Position numbers and translations under genes: made by a program. A model generated the notes under the pieces. The model worked only from the letters and a program-made list of their open reading frames with translations, was not told the DNA's origin and made no database searches. A DNA stretch of 64,000 nucleotides from Xanthobacteraceae bacterium (GTDB lineage Bacteria > Pseudomonadota > Alphaproteobacteria > Rhizobiales > Xanthobacteraceae): assembly GCA_022844205.1 (NCBI GenBank), contig JALHMF010000002.1, positions 1 to 64,000 of the forward strand, in the 5' to 3' direction. This document shows, one piece after another, positions 22,033 to 31,890 of this stretch; positions within the stretch are counted from its first letter, which is position 1, and every line of letters begins with the position of its first letter.

Positions 22033-22353
22033 TGAAATTCCTCGGGCTGTCCGGCGATTTCGGGCGCGGAAACTGGCGGATGCGGGTTCGTTGCGCATGC
22101 TTCTAGCATGGAATCAAGGCTTTGGCGGACGTTTTCACGCGAAATGTCGCGCCCGGCGGCCAATTGACAAGGTTGGGGCCGGTTCATATCTCTCCGGGAT
22201 CACGCCGGAATTCCCTATAAACACGTTGATGTGACCGGCCGGTTTGCCGAGAAACCATCGCATTTTGGCTGCACTACCGTTCCCCATTCCGAGGAACTCC
22301 GGATAACAGTATTCGGCCTCCGCTGATCGAGCGGCGGACGACAGGAAAAAAAG
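22033..22353. other. Divergent intergenic region between the parvulin gene and secA
   Basis: A 321-nt gap with no supported gene. It holds a candidate secA promoter (22164-22192) and about 160 nt that would be the secA leader. I found no secM-like peptide and no obvious hairpin close to the secA start. Confidence 0.45.
22164..22192 (+). promoter_or_regulatory. Candidate secA promoter
   Basis: A perfect TTGACA (22164-22169) is followed after 17 nt by TATCTC (22187-22192), directed towards secA. The -10 box is only a partial match. Confidence 0.45.
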
Positions 22354-25140
22354 ATGATTGCCTCGCTTGCACGCAAGATTTTCGGCTCCGCCAACGACCG
22401 GCGTGTTCGTAAATATGAGCCGAGAGTGGAGGCAATCAACGCGCTGGAGCCCGAACTCGAGGCACTCTCCGATGAAGCCCTGAGGGCGCGCACCGCTGAA
22501 TTCCGTAAGCAGATTGCGGACGGCGCCAGTCTCGACGACCTGCTTGTGCCCGCCTTCGCAACCGTACGCGAAGCCGCCAAACGCACGCTTGGACAGCGGC
22601 ATTTCGACGTCCAACTCATCGGCGGCATGGTACTGCATGAGGGCGCCATCGCCGAAATGAAGACGGGCGAAGGCAAGACCCTCGTCGCGACGCTGGCGGT
22701 GTATCTGAACGCGCTGAACGACAAGGGCGTGCACGTCGTCACCGTCAACGATTATCTCGCCAAGCGCGACTCCGAATGGATGGGCCAAGTCTATACGTTT
22801 CTCGGCCTCACCGTCGGCGTGATCGTTCACGGCCTCGACGATTCCCAACGCCAGGCGGCTTACGCCTGCGACGTTACCTACGGCACCAACAACGAGCTTG
22901 GCTTCGATTATCTGCGCGACAACATGAAGTACGAGTTGAACCAGATGGCGCAGCGCGGGCATGTGTACGCGATCGTGGACGAAGTCGACTCCATTCTCAT
23001 CGACGAAGCACGCACGCCGCTCATCATTTCGGGCCCGCTCGACGACCGCTCGGACTTCTACAACACGATCGACAAATTCATCCCGCTGCTCGCAGCGGAG
23101 CATTTCGAGGTCGATGAAAAGCAGCGCGCGACCAACCTCACCGAGACCGGCACGGAATTTCTTGAAAACAAGCTCAAGGAAGCGGACTTGCTGAAGGGCG
23201 ACTCGCTCTACGACATCGACAACGTGTCGGTTGTCCATCACGTCAATCAGGCGCTGCGCGCCCACAAGCTGTTCCAGCGCGACCGCGATTACATCGTGCG
23301 CAACAACGAAGTCGTCATCATCGACGAGTTCACCGGCCGCATGATGCCGGGACGCCGCTATTCGGAAGGCCTGCATCAGGCGCTGGAAGCCAAGGAACAC
23401 GTTGCGATTCAGCCGGAAAACCAGACGCTGGCCTCGATCACCTTCCAGAATTACTTCCGCCTGTATAAAAAGCTCGCGGGCATGACCGGTACCGCCAACA
23501 CCGAGGCGGCGGAATTCGGCGACATCTACAATCTTGAAGTGATCGAAGTACCGACCAACCGGCCAATGCTGCGCGACGACCAGCACGACGAGGTCTATCG
23601 CACGGCACAGGAGAAATACCGGGCAATCATCGAACTGCTGAAAGACTGCAAGACGCGCGGTCAGCCCGTGCTGGTCGGTACCGTTTCGATTGAGAAATCC
23701 GAAAGCCTTGCCGAAGCGCTGCGCAAGGAAGGCTGGAAGCAGGCGGATTTCTCCGACCCCAACGCCTTTGCCTCGCTGTATGACGGCGACCAGAAAACCG
23801 CTGGCGAAAAGGTCTTCGCGGTGCTGAACGCCCGCTACCACGAGCAGGAGGCCTACATCATCTCGCAGGCCGGTGTGCCGGGCGCCGTCACCATTGCCAC
23901 TAACATGGCCGGCCGCGGCACCGACATTCAGCTCGGCGGCAACGCCGACATGCGTGTGCGCCAGGAACTTAAGGACGTCGCGGATCCGGCAAAACGTGAA
24001 AAAGGCATCGCCGATATCCGGTCGCAAGTTGCGCGTCTGAAGGAAAAGGCGCTCGCCGCCGGCGGCCTGTTCGTGCTCGGCACCGAGCGCCACGAGTCCC
24101 GCCGCATCGACAACCAGCTTCGCGGCCGCGCCGGCCGTCAGGGCGATCCGGGCGCATCGCGCTTCTTCCTCTCGTTGGAAGACGACCTGATGCGCATCTT
24201 CGGATCGGATCAACTCGGCGGGATGCTGACGAAACTCGGCCTCAAGGAGAACGAGGCGATCGTCCATCCCTGGATCAACAAGGCGCTTGAGAAAGCTCAG
24301 CAGAAGGTCGAGGCGCGCAACTTCGACATCCGCAAGAACATCCTGAAATACGATGACGTGATGAACGACCAGCGCAAGGTCGTATTCGAGCAGCGCATTG
24401 AACTGATGCGCGATCAGGACGTATCCGGCACCGTCGCGGACATGCGGCACTCGATCATTTCCGATCTCGTCGCGCGCCACATTCCCGAGAACGCCTACCC
24501 CGAGCAGTGGGACACGCCAGGCTTGAAAGCGGCCGTCGAAGGCGCGCTCGGCCTCCAGCTTCCGGTCGAACAATGGGCCAGGGAAGAAGGCATTGCCGAT
24601 GCGGAGGTGCGCGAGCGCATCACCCGCGAGGCCGACGAAGTGATGGCCGCGAAGGCCGCCAAATACGGCCCCGAGATCATGCGCTATGTGGAGAAGTCGA
24701 TCCTGCTGCAGACGCTCGATCATCTCTGGCGCGAGCATCTCGTGATGCTGGAGCATCTGCGCCAGGTCATCGGTTTCCGCGGCTACGCACAGCGCGATCC
24801 GTTGCAGGAATACAAGTCAGAGGCGTTCGCGCTGTTCGATGCCCTGCTGACCCGCCTGCGCGAAGGGGTCACCACCCAGCTTCTGCGCGTCGAAATCGTA
24901 TCCTCACCGCCGACGATGGACGAGCTTCCGCCGATGGAAGCCCATCACATCAATCCGACCACCGGCGAGGACGAGATGGCGCTGGCCGCTGCTTCCGTGG
25001 CGGGAGCCTCCGCACAGCGCAGCGCGCCTGAAACGCGCAAAGCCGAAGACCCCAACTCCTGGGGCAAGGTCGGCCGCAATGAACTTTGCCCCTGCGGCTC
25101 CGGCAAGAAATACAAGCAGTGTCACGGACGTCTCGCCTGA
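22354..25140 (+). CDS. secA: Preprotein translocase ATPase SecA
   Basis: A 928-residue motor that drives unfolded preproteins through SecYEG. Nucleotide-binding motifs are present: Walker A MKTGEGKT (about 102-109) and DEVDS (209-213), plus the helicase-like second half with [10 protein letters not shown] and RGRAGRQGD. The C-terminal zinc finger for SecB binding, [14 protein letters not shown], begins at 912 (C912, C914, C923, H924). The length is usual for the family. It stands alone, divergent from the parvulin gene. Confidence 0.98.
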
Positions 25141-28836: not shown

Positions 28837-29442
28837 ATGAACGCCGCACACGACATGGAACACGAGCAAGGGGACACGAAATCGTTGCGCACCCGCCTCG
28901 GCGCGCGTTCGATCATGATCGTCGGCATGCCCGGCTCGGGAAAAAGCTCCATCGGACGGCGGCTTGCCCCCAAACTCGGCATGGACTTTTTCGATGCCGA
29001 CGCCGAGATCATCAAAGCCGCGAACGGCATGACCATTCCGGAGATTTTCGCAAAGCACGGAGAAGCGGAGTTCCGCTCGCTGGAAGCACGCGTGATCGGC
29101 CGCCTGCTGGACGGCCCACCAAAGGTAATTGCGACCGGCGGCGGCGCGTTCATGAACGCCGAAACGCGCGCCTCGTCGCGAAAACACGCGGTATCGATCT
29201 GGCTGAAAGCGGACATTCCAATTCTGCTTCGTCGCGTGAAGCGAAAAAACGACCGGCCGCTGCTGCGTGGAGACGACCCTGAAGGCGTTTTGCAACGGCT
29301 CCTGTCCGAGCGCGAGCAAACATACGAGGAAGCGGATATCATCGTCGTTTCCCGGGAAGGACCGCACGAGGCAGTCGTGGATGAAATCACCGACAATCTC
29401 GATCGCTGGCTGAGCGCGCGTGAAGAAGAGGCTCAGTCATGA
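28837..29442 (+). CDS. aroK: Shikimate kinase
   Basis: A 201-residue enzyme that phosphorylates shikimate on the way to chorismate. The P-loop GMPGSGKS is at 30-37, DADAEI binds shikimate, and ATGGGAFM and RPLL follow in the usual order. About 20 residues precede the conserved core; an ATG at 28855 is an alternative start. Its stop overlaps the aroB start (ATGA). Confidence 0.96.
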   Translation: MNAAHDMEHEQGDTKSLRTRLGARSIMIVGMPGSGKSSIGRRLAPKLGMDFFDADAEIIKAANGMTIPEIFAKHGEAEFRSLEARVIGRLLDGPPKVIATGGGAFMNAETRASSRKHAVSIWLKADIPILLRRVKRKNDRPLLRGDDPEGVLQRLLSEREQTYEEADIIVVSREGPHEAVVDEITDNLDRWLSAREEEAQS

Positions 29443-30569
29443 GCGTTGCGCTAAAGCAGGCCATGCGGACCGTCACGGTCGAGCTGGGCGATCGCAGTTA
29501 TGAAATCGTGATCGGTCCCGGCGTCATCGACGAGGCCGGGCCTAGAATTTCCAGGCTACGCCCCGGCGCCGCCGCCGTGATCGTCACCGACGAAAATGTC
29601 GGCAAGCTGCACGCGGACCGCCTCGAAAAATCGCTTGGCTCGGCGGATATACGCAGCAGCCGCACGACGATCCCCGCAGGCGAAAGCTCAAAAAGCTATC
29701 CGATGATCGAGCGCGTCGTGGATTCGATCCTTGCCGCGAAAATCGAGCGCGGCGATCTCGTGATCGCTTTGGGCGGAGGCGTGGTAGGCGATCTCGCGGG
29801 CTTCGCAGCCGCCATCGCCCGCCGTGGCATGGACCTCGTACAGGTCCCGACAAGCCTGCTCGCGCAGGTCGACTCCTCGGTCGGCGGCAAGACCGGCATC
29901 AACAGCCCGCACGGGAAAAATCTTGTTGGCGCGTTTCACCAGCCATTGCTTGTGCTCGCCGATACCAGCCTTCTCGACACGCTTCCCGAGCGGCAATTCC
30001 GTGCCGGTTATGCGGAAGTGGCAAAATACGGCCTCATCAACGACGCGGCTTTCTTCAACTGGCTGGAAAAGAACTGGGGCGACGTGTTTAAGGGCGGCGA
30101 TGCCCGCATCGAGGCCATTGCAAAAAGCTGCCAGGCAAAGGCCGCTATCGTCGGCCGCGACGAACGCGAGAGCGGCGAACGGGCATTGCTGAATCTGGGC
30201 CACACGTTCGGCCATGCGCTCGAAGCCGCAACCGGATTTTCCGACCGGTTGCTGCACGGCGAGGGCGTCGCACTCGGCATGGTTCTGGCATTCCAGCTCT
30301 CCGCGCGTCTAGGCATTTGCCCGAAGGCGGACGCCGAACGCGTGGAAGCGCATCTTGCAGCCGTCGGCCTGCCGATAAAGCTCTCGCAAATTCCCGGCGC
30401 ATTGCCGGATGCAAGCGGACTTCTGGAACTCATGGGCCAGGACAAGAAAGTCCGCCGGGGCGTTCTCGTATTCATCCTCGCGCGCGGCATCGGCAAGGCG
30501 TTCGTCGAGCCGAAAGTCGAGCCGGAAATCGTCCGTCAACTGCTTGCCGATGCGCTGAACAGCGCCTGA
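29439..30569 (+). CDS. aroB: 3-dehydroquinate synthase
   Basis: A 376-residue NAD- and metal-dependent enzyme converting DAHP to 3-dehydroquinate. Family motifs include ALGGGVVGDLAGFAA, the PTSLLAQVDSSVGGKTGIN segment and the metal-binding HTFGHALEA. It is translationally coupled to aroK; the pair is conserved across proteobacteria. Confidence 0.97.
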   Translation: MSVALKQAMRTVTVELGDRSYEIVIGPGVIDEAGPRISRLRPGAAAVIVTDENVGKLHADRLEKSLGSADIRSSRTTIPAGESSKSYPMIERVVDSILAAKIERGDLVIALGGGVVGDLAGFAAAIARRGMDLVQVPTSLLAQVDSSVGGKTGINSPHGKNLVGAFHQPLLVLADTSLLDTLPERQFRAGYAEVAKYGLINDAAFFNWLEKNWGDVFKGGDARIEAIAKSCQAKAAIVGRDERESGERALLNLGHTFGHALEAATGFSDRLLHGEGVALGMVLAFQLSARLGICPKADAERVEAHLAAVGLPIKLSQIPGALPDASGLLELMGQDKKVRRGVLVFILARGIGKAFVEPKVEPEIVRQLLADALNSA

Positions 30570-30577
30570 TCACAGCC

Positions 30578-31489
30578 ATGCTCGCACGCGTCTTTTCCTG
30601 GATTTTCGAACTCGTAAGCCGGGTCTTCTTCGCCATGAAGACGCTTGTTCGGTGGATCCCTCGTCTCGCCGGGTTCGGCAAGAACGGCGCGACCGCGCAC
30701 GATGAACTCCGCGAGACGGTCAACGTCCTTCACCGCGAGGGAAGCGTCGTCAAATCCGACCGCGACATGCTGGGCGGATTGCTCGACCTGAAAGAACTGG
30801 AAGTTTCCGACGTAATGCTCCACCGCACCAAAATGATGTCGATCAACGCGGACGATCCGGCCGAGAAGATCGTGCATGAGGTTTTGGAGTCGCGCTACAG
30901 CCGCATTCCGCTCTGGCGCGATACGTCCGATAATATCGTCGGTATTCTGCACGCCAAGGATTTACTGCGCGCACTGCAGGCGGCAGGCGGCAACGCCGCA
31001 AAGATCAACATCCCCAAACTCGCCACGCCGCCATGGTTTGTGCCGGCGACGCGGCCAGTCACCGATCAATTGAAGGCATTTCTTCGCCGCAAGACCCATT
31101 TCGCGCTCGTCGTGGACGAGTACGGAGAGATGATGGGACTGGTGACGCTGGAAGATATTTTCGAAGAGATTGTCGGCGATATTTCCGACGAGCACGATGC
31201 GGCGATGGATGACCTGCGCCGGCATCAGGACGGCTCGTTCACCATCGACGGTTCGGTGCCGATCCGCGACCTGAACCGCGCCCTCGACTGGAAATTACCG
31301 GACGACGAGGCAACCACCGTCGCCGGCCTTGTCATTCACGAAGCCCGCCTGATCCCTGAGGCGGGCCAGACGTTCACCTTTCATGGCTATCGTTTTCAAG
31401 TGCTCAGAAAAACGCGTAACCGGATTATGTCACTGCGCGTGTCGCCGCTCGTCCGCAAGGAACCGGCACCCGCGGGCCGCGCCGCCTGA
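30578..31489 (+). CDS. CorC/HlyC-type CBS-domain protein lacking the DUF21 membrane domain
   Basis: A 303-residue protein. A hydrophobic N-terminus (FSWIFELVSRVFFAM) is followed by two CBS domains (about 70-200) and a CorC_HlyC domain (about 215-300). Homologs at this place after aroB in related genera are about 430 residues, with an N-terminal four-helix DUF21 (CNNM) domain thought to move Mg2+ or other ions. Here the frame begins near the last helix of DUF21; the upstream sequence belongs to aroB in another frame. No good ribosome binding site precedes ATG 30578. It is either a degraded transporter or a gene that now makes a soluble or peripheral CorC-like regulator. Confidence 0.8.
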   Translation: MLARVFSWIFELVSRVFFAMKTLVRWIPRLAGFGKNGATAHDELRETVNVLHREGSVVKSDRDMLGGLLDLKELEVSDVMLHRTKMMSINADDPAEKIVHEVLESRYSRIPLWRDTSDNIVGILHAKDLLRALQAAGGNAAKINIPKLATPPWFVPATRPVTDQLKAFLRRKTHFALVVDEYGEMMGLVTLEDIFEEIVGDISDEHDAAMDDLRRHQDGSFTIDGSVPIRDLNRALDWKLPDDEATTVAGLVIHEARLIPEAGQTFTFHGYRFQVLRKTRNRIMSLRVSPLVRKEPAPAGRAA

Positions 31490-31500
31490 ACCCGCTTTCC

Positions 31501-31547
31501 AGCATGATCTTTTCCGAAACCCGGTTTCCGGTTTTCGGGATCCTGCT
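31501..31547. repeat. Rhizobial-type intergenic palindrome
   Basis: A palindromic element with outer arms AGCATGATC and GATCCTGCT and an inner hairpin (31514-31538, CCGAAA..CCGG/CCGG..TTTCGG type, 10 of 11 pairs). It resembles the short dispersed palindromes seen between genes in many rhizobia. It fits exactly between the stops of the corC-like and bolA genes, and its last base is the first base of the bolA stop, so it may serve as a shared terminator. Confidence 0.6.
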
Positions 31548-31813
31548 CATTCGCCCGGCGCTTTCGCTTCGATCGCGAGCGCATGCAGGCCTGCGGCAAT
31601 CTCATCTTTCAGCAATTCGTTCACAGCGCGGTGCCGTTCGATCCGGCTCTTGCCTGCAAAGGCCGTAGTCGTAACTTTCACCCGCACATGCGTGATCTTG
31701 CCCGGGATCGCACCCGCGTGCCCCACATGCTGCCCGCTCTCGTCGATCACTTCGAGGCGATCAGGCGAAAGTCCGCTCGTCAGGCTATTCTGGATTCGCT
31801 CCACAGTACCCAT
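31547..31813 (-). CDS. bolA: BolA family protein
   Basis: An 88-residue BolA-type protein. MGTVERIQNSL and HAVNELL-like RHRAVNELL, with a conserved His, fit the family, whose members pair with monothiol glutaredoxins to handle Fe-S clusters and affect cell shape and stress response. The ATG at 31813 is used; an upstream TTG would add two residues. It is divergent from the J-domain gene. Confidence 0.9.
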   Translation of the reverse strand: MGTVERIQNSLTSGLSPDRLEVIDESGQHVGHAGAIPGKITHVRVKVTTTAFAGKSRIERHRAVNELLKDEIAAGLHALAIEAKAPGE

Positions 31814-31890
31814 ATACAAGCGAATAGAGCGCGATCCGCGTTCCCGTCAACTTCGCGTCAAACTGTCGTTGTCTAGTTTCTATTGCCGCC

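Follow-up and report, generated by a model that had tools for sequence, protein, structure and literature searches.

The gene that directly follows aroB in the window, the 64,000-nucleotide stretch of Xanthobacteraceae DNA analyzed here, encodes a CNNM/CorB ortholog that has lost its DUF21 membrane domain and kept an intact CBS pair and CorC_HlyC domain, which confirms the central observation of a first-pass annotation of the sequence. The loss is recurrent, the cytosolic module is conserved and under purifying selection, and the residues at its ATP-contact positions are retained. We think it probable that DUF21 was deleted and that the cytosolic Mg2+-ATP-binding module was kept by selection as a stand-alone regulator.

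The short gene after aroB

The window is the start of contig C2 (471 kb) in a 3.17-Mb genome of 17 contigs that is 98% complete. The shikimate kinase gene aroK (28837..29442, + strand; Pfam SKI, 4.5e-46) lies 5' of aroB, which encodes 3-dehydroquinate synthase (29439..30569, + strand; Pfam DHQ_synthase and DHQS_C) with a C terminus that is intact in a by-eye alignment with its orthologs. An 8-nt spacer (30570..30577, + strand) leads to the short gene (30578..31489, + strand), recognized by its open reading frame, by Pfam, and by comparison with orthologs, and its 303 codons contain neither a stop nor a frameshift. Thus, the aroB end at 30569, the ATG at 30578, and the intactness of the soluble part were as the first-pass annotation had described them. 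The lack of a clear ribosome binding site that it reported also holds for the short gene but is not peculiar to the short form, as no Shine-Dalgarno sequence was seen by eye in the aroB-gene intergenic sequences before the full-length genes of two same-genus genomes, G001 and G003. Because the GCCATG at the start of the short gene is present in G001 and G003 too, its ATG may date from the ancestral gene, with the in-frame deletion lying after it. A BolA-like gene (31547..31819, − strand) is the convergent neighbor of the short gene and serves as context only. Elsewhere in the window, a 928-codon open frame (22354-25140, + strand) lies opposite an 873-codon one (22135-24756, − strand), probably as a by-product of high G+C content.

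Full-length forms of the gene are found in the same genus. Five genomes of the genus were examined, and the gene was found in four, the window species (G000) and G001 to G003; it was absent from the matches of G004, a genome that is only 68% complete. In all three other genomes with the gene, a full-length protein follows aroB directly (432 residues in G001 and 428 each in G002 and G003), and the short form is therefore not the only one that sister species have. The window protein aligns to that of G001 from G001 residue 126 onward, and therefore about 126 to 129 residues, the whole of DUF21 bar its last stretch, are gone. The core is identical to that of G001 at 195 of 263 residues. Alignment with aroB-linked homologs thus bears out the earlier claim that, relative to transporters of roughly 430 residues, more than 100 N-terminal residues with the membrane domain were lost and the CBS and CorC_HlyC domains were kept.

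Pfam recognized CBS (1.6e-19) and CorC_HlyC (1.6e-23) in the 303-residue protein and returned no match to CNNM/DUF21 (PF01595) at E<=1. An N-terminal stub, placed by alignment (residues 1 to 33; 30578..30676, + strand), is a remnant of DUF21's last part. An acidic-helical-bundle segment follows (approximately residues 41 to 72; 30698..30793, + strand), which keeps 10 of 11 conserved positions and forms two helices in a structure model. In the first CBS motif (residues 76 to 134; 30803..30979, + strand), T84 and R109 occupy Mg2+-ATP contact positions by motif, and T190 and D193 occupy ATP-contact positions by motif in the second (approximately residues 150 to 205, with approximate boundaries; 31025..31192, + strand). 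The CorC_HlyC domain was assigned by Pfam to residues 215 to 290 (31220..31447, + strand). The contact positions were taken from MtCorB, whose cytosolic part binds Mg2+-ATP and dimerizes according to the available text of PMC8242095. The stub is amphipathic: its moment is 0.65, it carries a net charge of +5 over 35 residues, and its maximum hydropathy over 19 residues is 1.39. It is predicted to be a single helix over residues 2 to 30 in the low-confidence model and could possibly attach to the membrane. By hydropathy, the protein has no transmembrane domain alongside its CBS pair and CorC_HlyC domain, although the stub could still be membrane located. The structure prediction, made from 21 sequences, was too weak for a fold search (mean pLDDT, 69.8; pTM, 0.33), and only its helix positions were used.

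Loss, apparent exchange, and alteration of the membrane domain

In Hyphomicrobiales, DUF21 was missing from the aroB-linked gene in 23 genomes, among them those of 11 species of a genus coded g23 and 7 of one coded g108. A family survey covered 391 genomes, 346 of which had a match at E<=1e-60, and the 146 lowest-scoring genomes, the window's included, were searched a second time, the query being a protein with a different DUF21; most misfits were then read by sequence. By sequence, 12 lacked DUF21 (the window species and the 11 species of g23) and 4 had a strongly altered DUF21 (G021, G071, G100, and G121). By score, 124 were of a form that we call type II, with a different DUF21 and helical bundle and the same CBS/CorC part. 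The remaining six are unclassified: G181 (contig end), G254 (unopened, probably contig end), G263 (unopened), G184 (a normal-looking DUF21 with a poor match behind it), and G301 and G408 (runs of N). An order survey covered 297 genomes, 224 with a match at E<=1e-50, and 23 low-scoring ones were opened. Ten of these lacked DUF21, namely, the 7 genomes of g108, in which a single hydrophobic helix stands in its place, G675, with a stub rather like that of the window protein, G629, and G473. Nine had an altered DUF21 (6 of g143 and 3 of g107), two were type II, and two were incomplete and unclassifiable (G598 and G570); G038, G422, G440, G509, G537, G561, and G583 were low scoring but unopened. 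The survey counts are lower bounds in that low-scoring genomes were followed and high-scoring ones were not, and a high score means a full-length match rather than a normal ion site, as G002 and G003 scored high.

Named loci numbered 24, two of which are the records of G002 and G003, and among the other 22, which were inspected, one lacked DUF21, that of Agaricicola taiwanensis CCM 7684 (NZ_BMCP01000005.1). There, an in-frame hydrophobic stretch devoid of ATG, GTG, and TTG lies 5' of the short gene's first ATG (L060:3872-3950), and a single-helix anchor may be concealed there by the use of a rare start codon. Among the titles and abstract openings of the literature matches listed, none described DUF21 loss in bacterial CNNM proteins; a paper on domain atrophy (PMC4432964) was set aside, as the DUF21 match in its available text was to DUF2172.

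On a tree of aroB plus core with 73 rows and a bootstrap that had not fully settled, the DUF21-less state needs 7 changes, with at least 6 forced by starred branches, and the altered-DUF21 state needs 5. That tree lost 10 rows in which the core start was not found by motif (altered L133, L135, and L141; canonical L044, L112, L034, and L159-L162). An earlier 63-row tree forced at least 3 changes for the DUF21-less state. Tree counts give changes of state and not their direction, and the wide occurrence of the complete form at this locus leads us to infer that the DUF21-less changes were losses.

The membrane domain also differs in kind. Type II, assigned by score in the 124 genomes, was read by sequence in seven of them and in the two of the order survey (L033, L095-L099, L101, L146, and L150), where the junction between the different DUF21 and helical bundle ('LLAANAFYVAAEFALVKSRGF...GEQVPKTLAI') and the shared CBS/CorC part falls close to where CBS1 begins. 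One genus contains both type II and the other form, judged by score, and the 73-row tree forces at least 4 changes. In type II, the membrane domain looks as if it had been exchanged. For G176 and G352, which are single-contig genomes of g25, the match to the type II gene is split into two overlapping pieces, suggestive of a frameshift.

In other lineages DUF21 is present and altered at the ion site. DUF21 has 37 positions with a conservation of 90% or more, of which 16 have changed in G002 and G003, whereas all 93 conserved core positions are kept in these two; G001 keeps 36 of the 37 and likewise 93 of 93. Among the changes in G002 and G003, Arg replaces both Asn69 and Glu109, and Glu109, by motif rather than by alignment with the archaeal protein, would correspond to Glu111 of MtCorB. 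In the available text of PMC8242095, Glu111 of MtCorB coordinates Mg2+, mutation of the equivalent Glu in TtCorB reduces transport, the human CNNM2 disease mutation E357K alters the same Glu, and Ala at three other Mg2+-site residues, including one Asn, raised transport. The DUF21 domains of G002 and G003 match PF01595 at 86 and 82 bits, versus 155 to 161 bits for 11 canonical aroB-linked copies in the same search. We take the Asn among the transport-raising Ala mutants to be Asn69, and since that substitution raised transport, the Asn69 change alone says little. The G002 and G003 forms probably do not transport normally. Relaxed selection on their DUF21 was considered and was not borne out by dN/dS, as the codon maximum-likelihood w on their branches (0.093) equals the background (0.093). 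Their DUF21 is identical to four canonical ones at 48 to 58 of 122 to 123 residues, and their core at 191 to 214 of 262 to 263. The domain is changed, though not evidently drifting.

A full-length DUF21 in which the ion-site glutamate is replaced by Arg, Cys, Asp, Leu, or Ala is carried at L007, L009, L100, L117-L119, L133, L135-L141, L143, L054, L059, and L109, and in the further lineages with this replacement the cytosolic part is well conserved. Loss of the glutamate need not mean decay, because at Hyphomicrobium-type loci Glu is replaced by Ala in a DUF21 that is otherwise well conserved (33 to 34 of 37 positions). At one locus, L050, Glu is kept and Asn69 and Lys113 are lost. A general route in which the ion site is altered first and the domain is deleted later is suggestive only. 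On the 73-row tree, the window species groups with G002 and G003 at 90/54, and G629 groups with three altered genomes at 100/96. Contrary to such a route, however, the deletions in g23 arose within a genus that has canonical members.

Selection on the cytosolic module

All 23 short proteins keep 76 to 83 of 83 conserved CBS/CorC positions, and the four Mg2+-ATP site residues located by motif (Thr, Arg, Thr, and Asp) are likewise retained in every one of them. The helical bundle is not the conserved part, because 21 of the 23 keep only 3 to 9 of its 11 conserved positions; G629 keeps 11 and the window species 10. A younger deletion in the window species would fit its nearly intact bundle.

Codon models point to purifying selection on the core; they were fitted with our own script, and the values are rough, with synonymous sites near saturation. 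In g23, w was 0.050 inside DUF21-less clades versus 0.053 on other branches (p=0.94), in a fit that used the branching of the 63-row tree, which differs within g23 from that of the 73-row tree; the optimizer may not have converged for the w=1 fit, and only its direction is relied on. By a simple pairwise method, in contrast, the median dN/dS of the g23 core was slightly higher for DUF21-less pairs (0.270; 55 pairs) than for canonical ones (0.237; 45 pairs). In the seven species of g108, w was 0.023 for the core and 0.17 for the N-terminal part. On the branch of the window species, represented by one genome, w was 0.060 or 0.050 on two topologies, against a background of 0.057 or 0.058, with a range of roughly 0.03 to 0.105, and w=1 was rejected (2dlnL, 54 and 77); that branch includes time before the deletion. 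The first-pass annotation had proposed that the soluble part was kept after the membrane part was deleted. For the phenomenon this is well supported, as the 11 species of g23 experience purifying selection like that of their DUF21-bearing relatives. For the window protein itself, a dN/dS of about 0.06 supports the proposal short of proving it.

Instead, the window-species gene might be a recent remnant en route to loss, the intact core of which reflects selection before the deletion. The averaging in of predeletion time is consistent with a remnant, as is the confinement of this deletion to a single species. Moreover, the stub is identical to six relatives at only 8 to 11 of 33 residues, versus 15 to 26 of 34 among four canonical relatives, and, measured against aroB, the core has evolved more rapidly in the window species than in most relatives, with pN(core)/pN(aroB) at 0.83 to 0.90 in the 6 pairs that include the window species and 0.44 to 0.83 in the 15 pairs that do not. 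The 303-codon frame is intact, however, and 91 of 93 conserved core columns are kept. By interpolation, w above approximately 0.11 is rejected on the branch, and under a simple mixture, neutral change could have occupied no more than about 5% of it. Finally, short forms of this kind have persisted elsewhere in groups of 11 and 7 species. We consider a remnant unlikely, though it is the strongest of the alternatives to selective retention of the module.

Relation to CorC and CorB and a proposed function

The shortened protein resembles CorC (YbeX) of E. coli and Salmonella, which also consists of a CBS pair and CorC_HlyC and has no transmembrane domain. YbeX has a role in the ribosome and the cell envelope, and the short form could have taken over such housekeeping rather than regulating a transporter. 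The best solved relative of the window protein is likewise soluble CorC (4hg0; E, 9.5e-39). The window gene differs from CorC, however, in locus and in descent. A ybeY-ybeX-lnt neighborhood is typical of CorC/YbeX, and the window gene instead follows aroB. It scores 153.4 bits against the CorC equivalog model PRK15094, the cutoff of which is 379 bits. Moreover, the genome already encodes a YbeX-like CBS protein at C2:434367-435266, beside a frame that we take to be Lnt-like. A YbeX-like role therefore seems improbable, and somewhat more so than a decaying remnant.

The window protein is related to the CorB/CNNM Mg2+ transporters (MtCorB, TtCorB, and TpCorB; PaeA) through a homologous cytosolic module in which the ATP-contact residues are kept, and it differs from them in having no DUF21 transport domain, so that the ion-site residues are absent from its sequence. 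It is an ortholog of the aroB-linked full-length CNNM proteins of Hyphomicrobiales, such as the 432-residue protein of G001, both by its place after aroB and by same-gene descent, and it differs from that protein by the deletion of about 126 DUF21 residues. Judged by these comparisons, we class it as an aroB-linked CNNM ortholog by descent and as CorC/YbeX-like by architecture, and it would no longer be a CNNM transporter.

Could the DUF21 part exist in the cell and have been dropped in assembly? The deletion was seen in one genome only. The site lies 30 kb inside a 471-kb contig, however, the junction is in frame and has a start codon, the stub is more diverged than in canonical relatives, and 22 other genomes show a loss of this kind, such that an assembly error is very unlikely. 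A relocated DUF21, acting in trans from a gene of its own, can be dismissed, as PF01595 has no match at the aroB locus and a single match in the window genome, which is a full-length CNNM paralog on contig C11 (C11:64859-66136), and as two CNNM domains are present in 10 of 10 canonical g23 genomes searched and one, elsewhere, in 11 of 11 DUF21-less ones. Of the short forms searched, only G629 has two CNNM domains, and both lie away from the short gene.

How the deletion would have altered the protein can be proposed from its parts. In the window species, the aroB-linked CNNM/CorB gene would have lost nearly all of DUF21 through an in-frame deletion; what remains is the stub helix, which is amphipathic, together with the acidic helical bundle, the CBS pair, and CorC_HlyC. 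The shortened protein should be unable to transport as CorB does and is most likely a cytosolic or membrane-attached dimer that responds to Mg2+-ATP. Such a dimer would regulate another protein, plausibly another cation transporter, and the full-length paralog on C11 is a candidate partner. The putative regulatory role is drawn from the retained ATP-contact residues and from soluble CorC, which in the available text of PMC12421838 affects Mg2+ efflux in Salmonella and is proposed to regulate an uncharacterized transporter.

More tentatively, and with somewhat less than even confidence, we suggest that the conserved function of the aroB-linked CNNM family of Hyphomicrobiales may reside in the CBS/CorC module, acting as a Mg2+-ATP regulator in its own right. 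The membrane domain would then be dispensable, given that it has repeatedly lost its normal ion site, given way to a different DUF21 or to a single helix, or disappeared altogether. If so, the aroB-linked CNNM family would be a natural experiment that separates the role of sensor from that of transporter. Repeated natural removal of the membrane domain, together with strong selection on the module, would provide ready-made proteins in which the sensor may be tested apart from transport.
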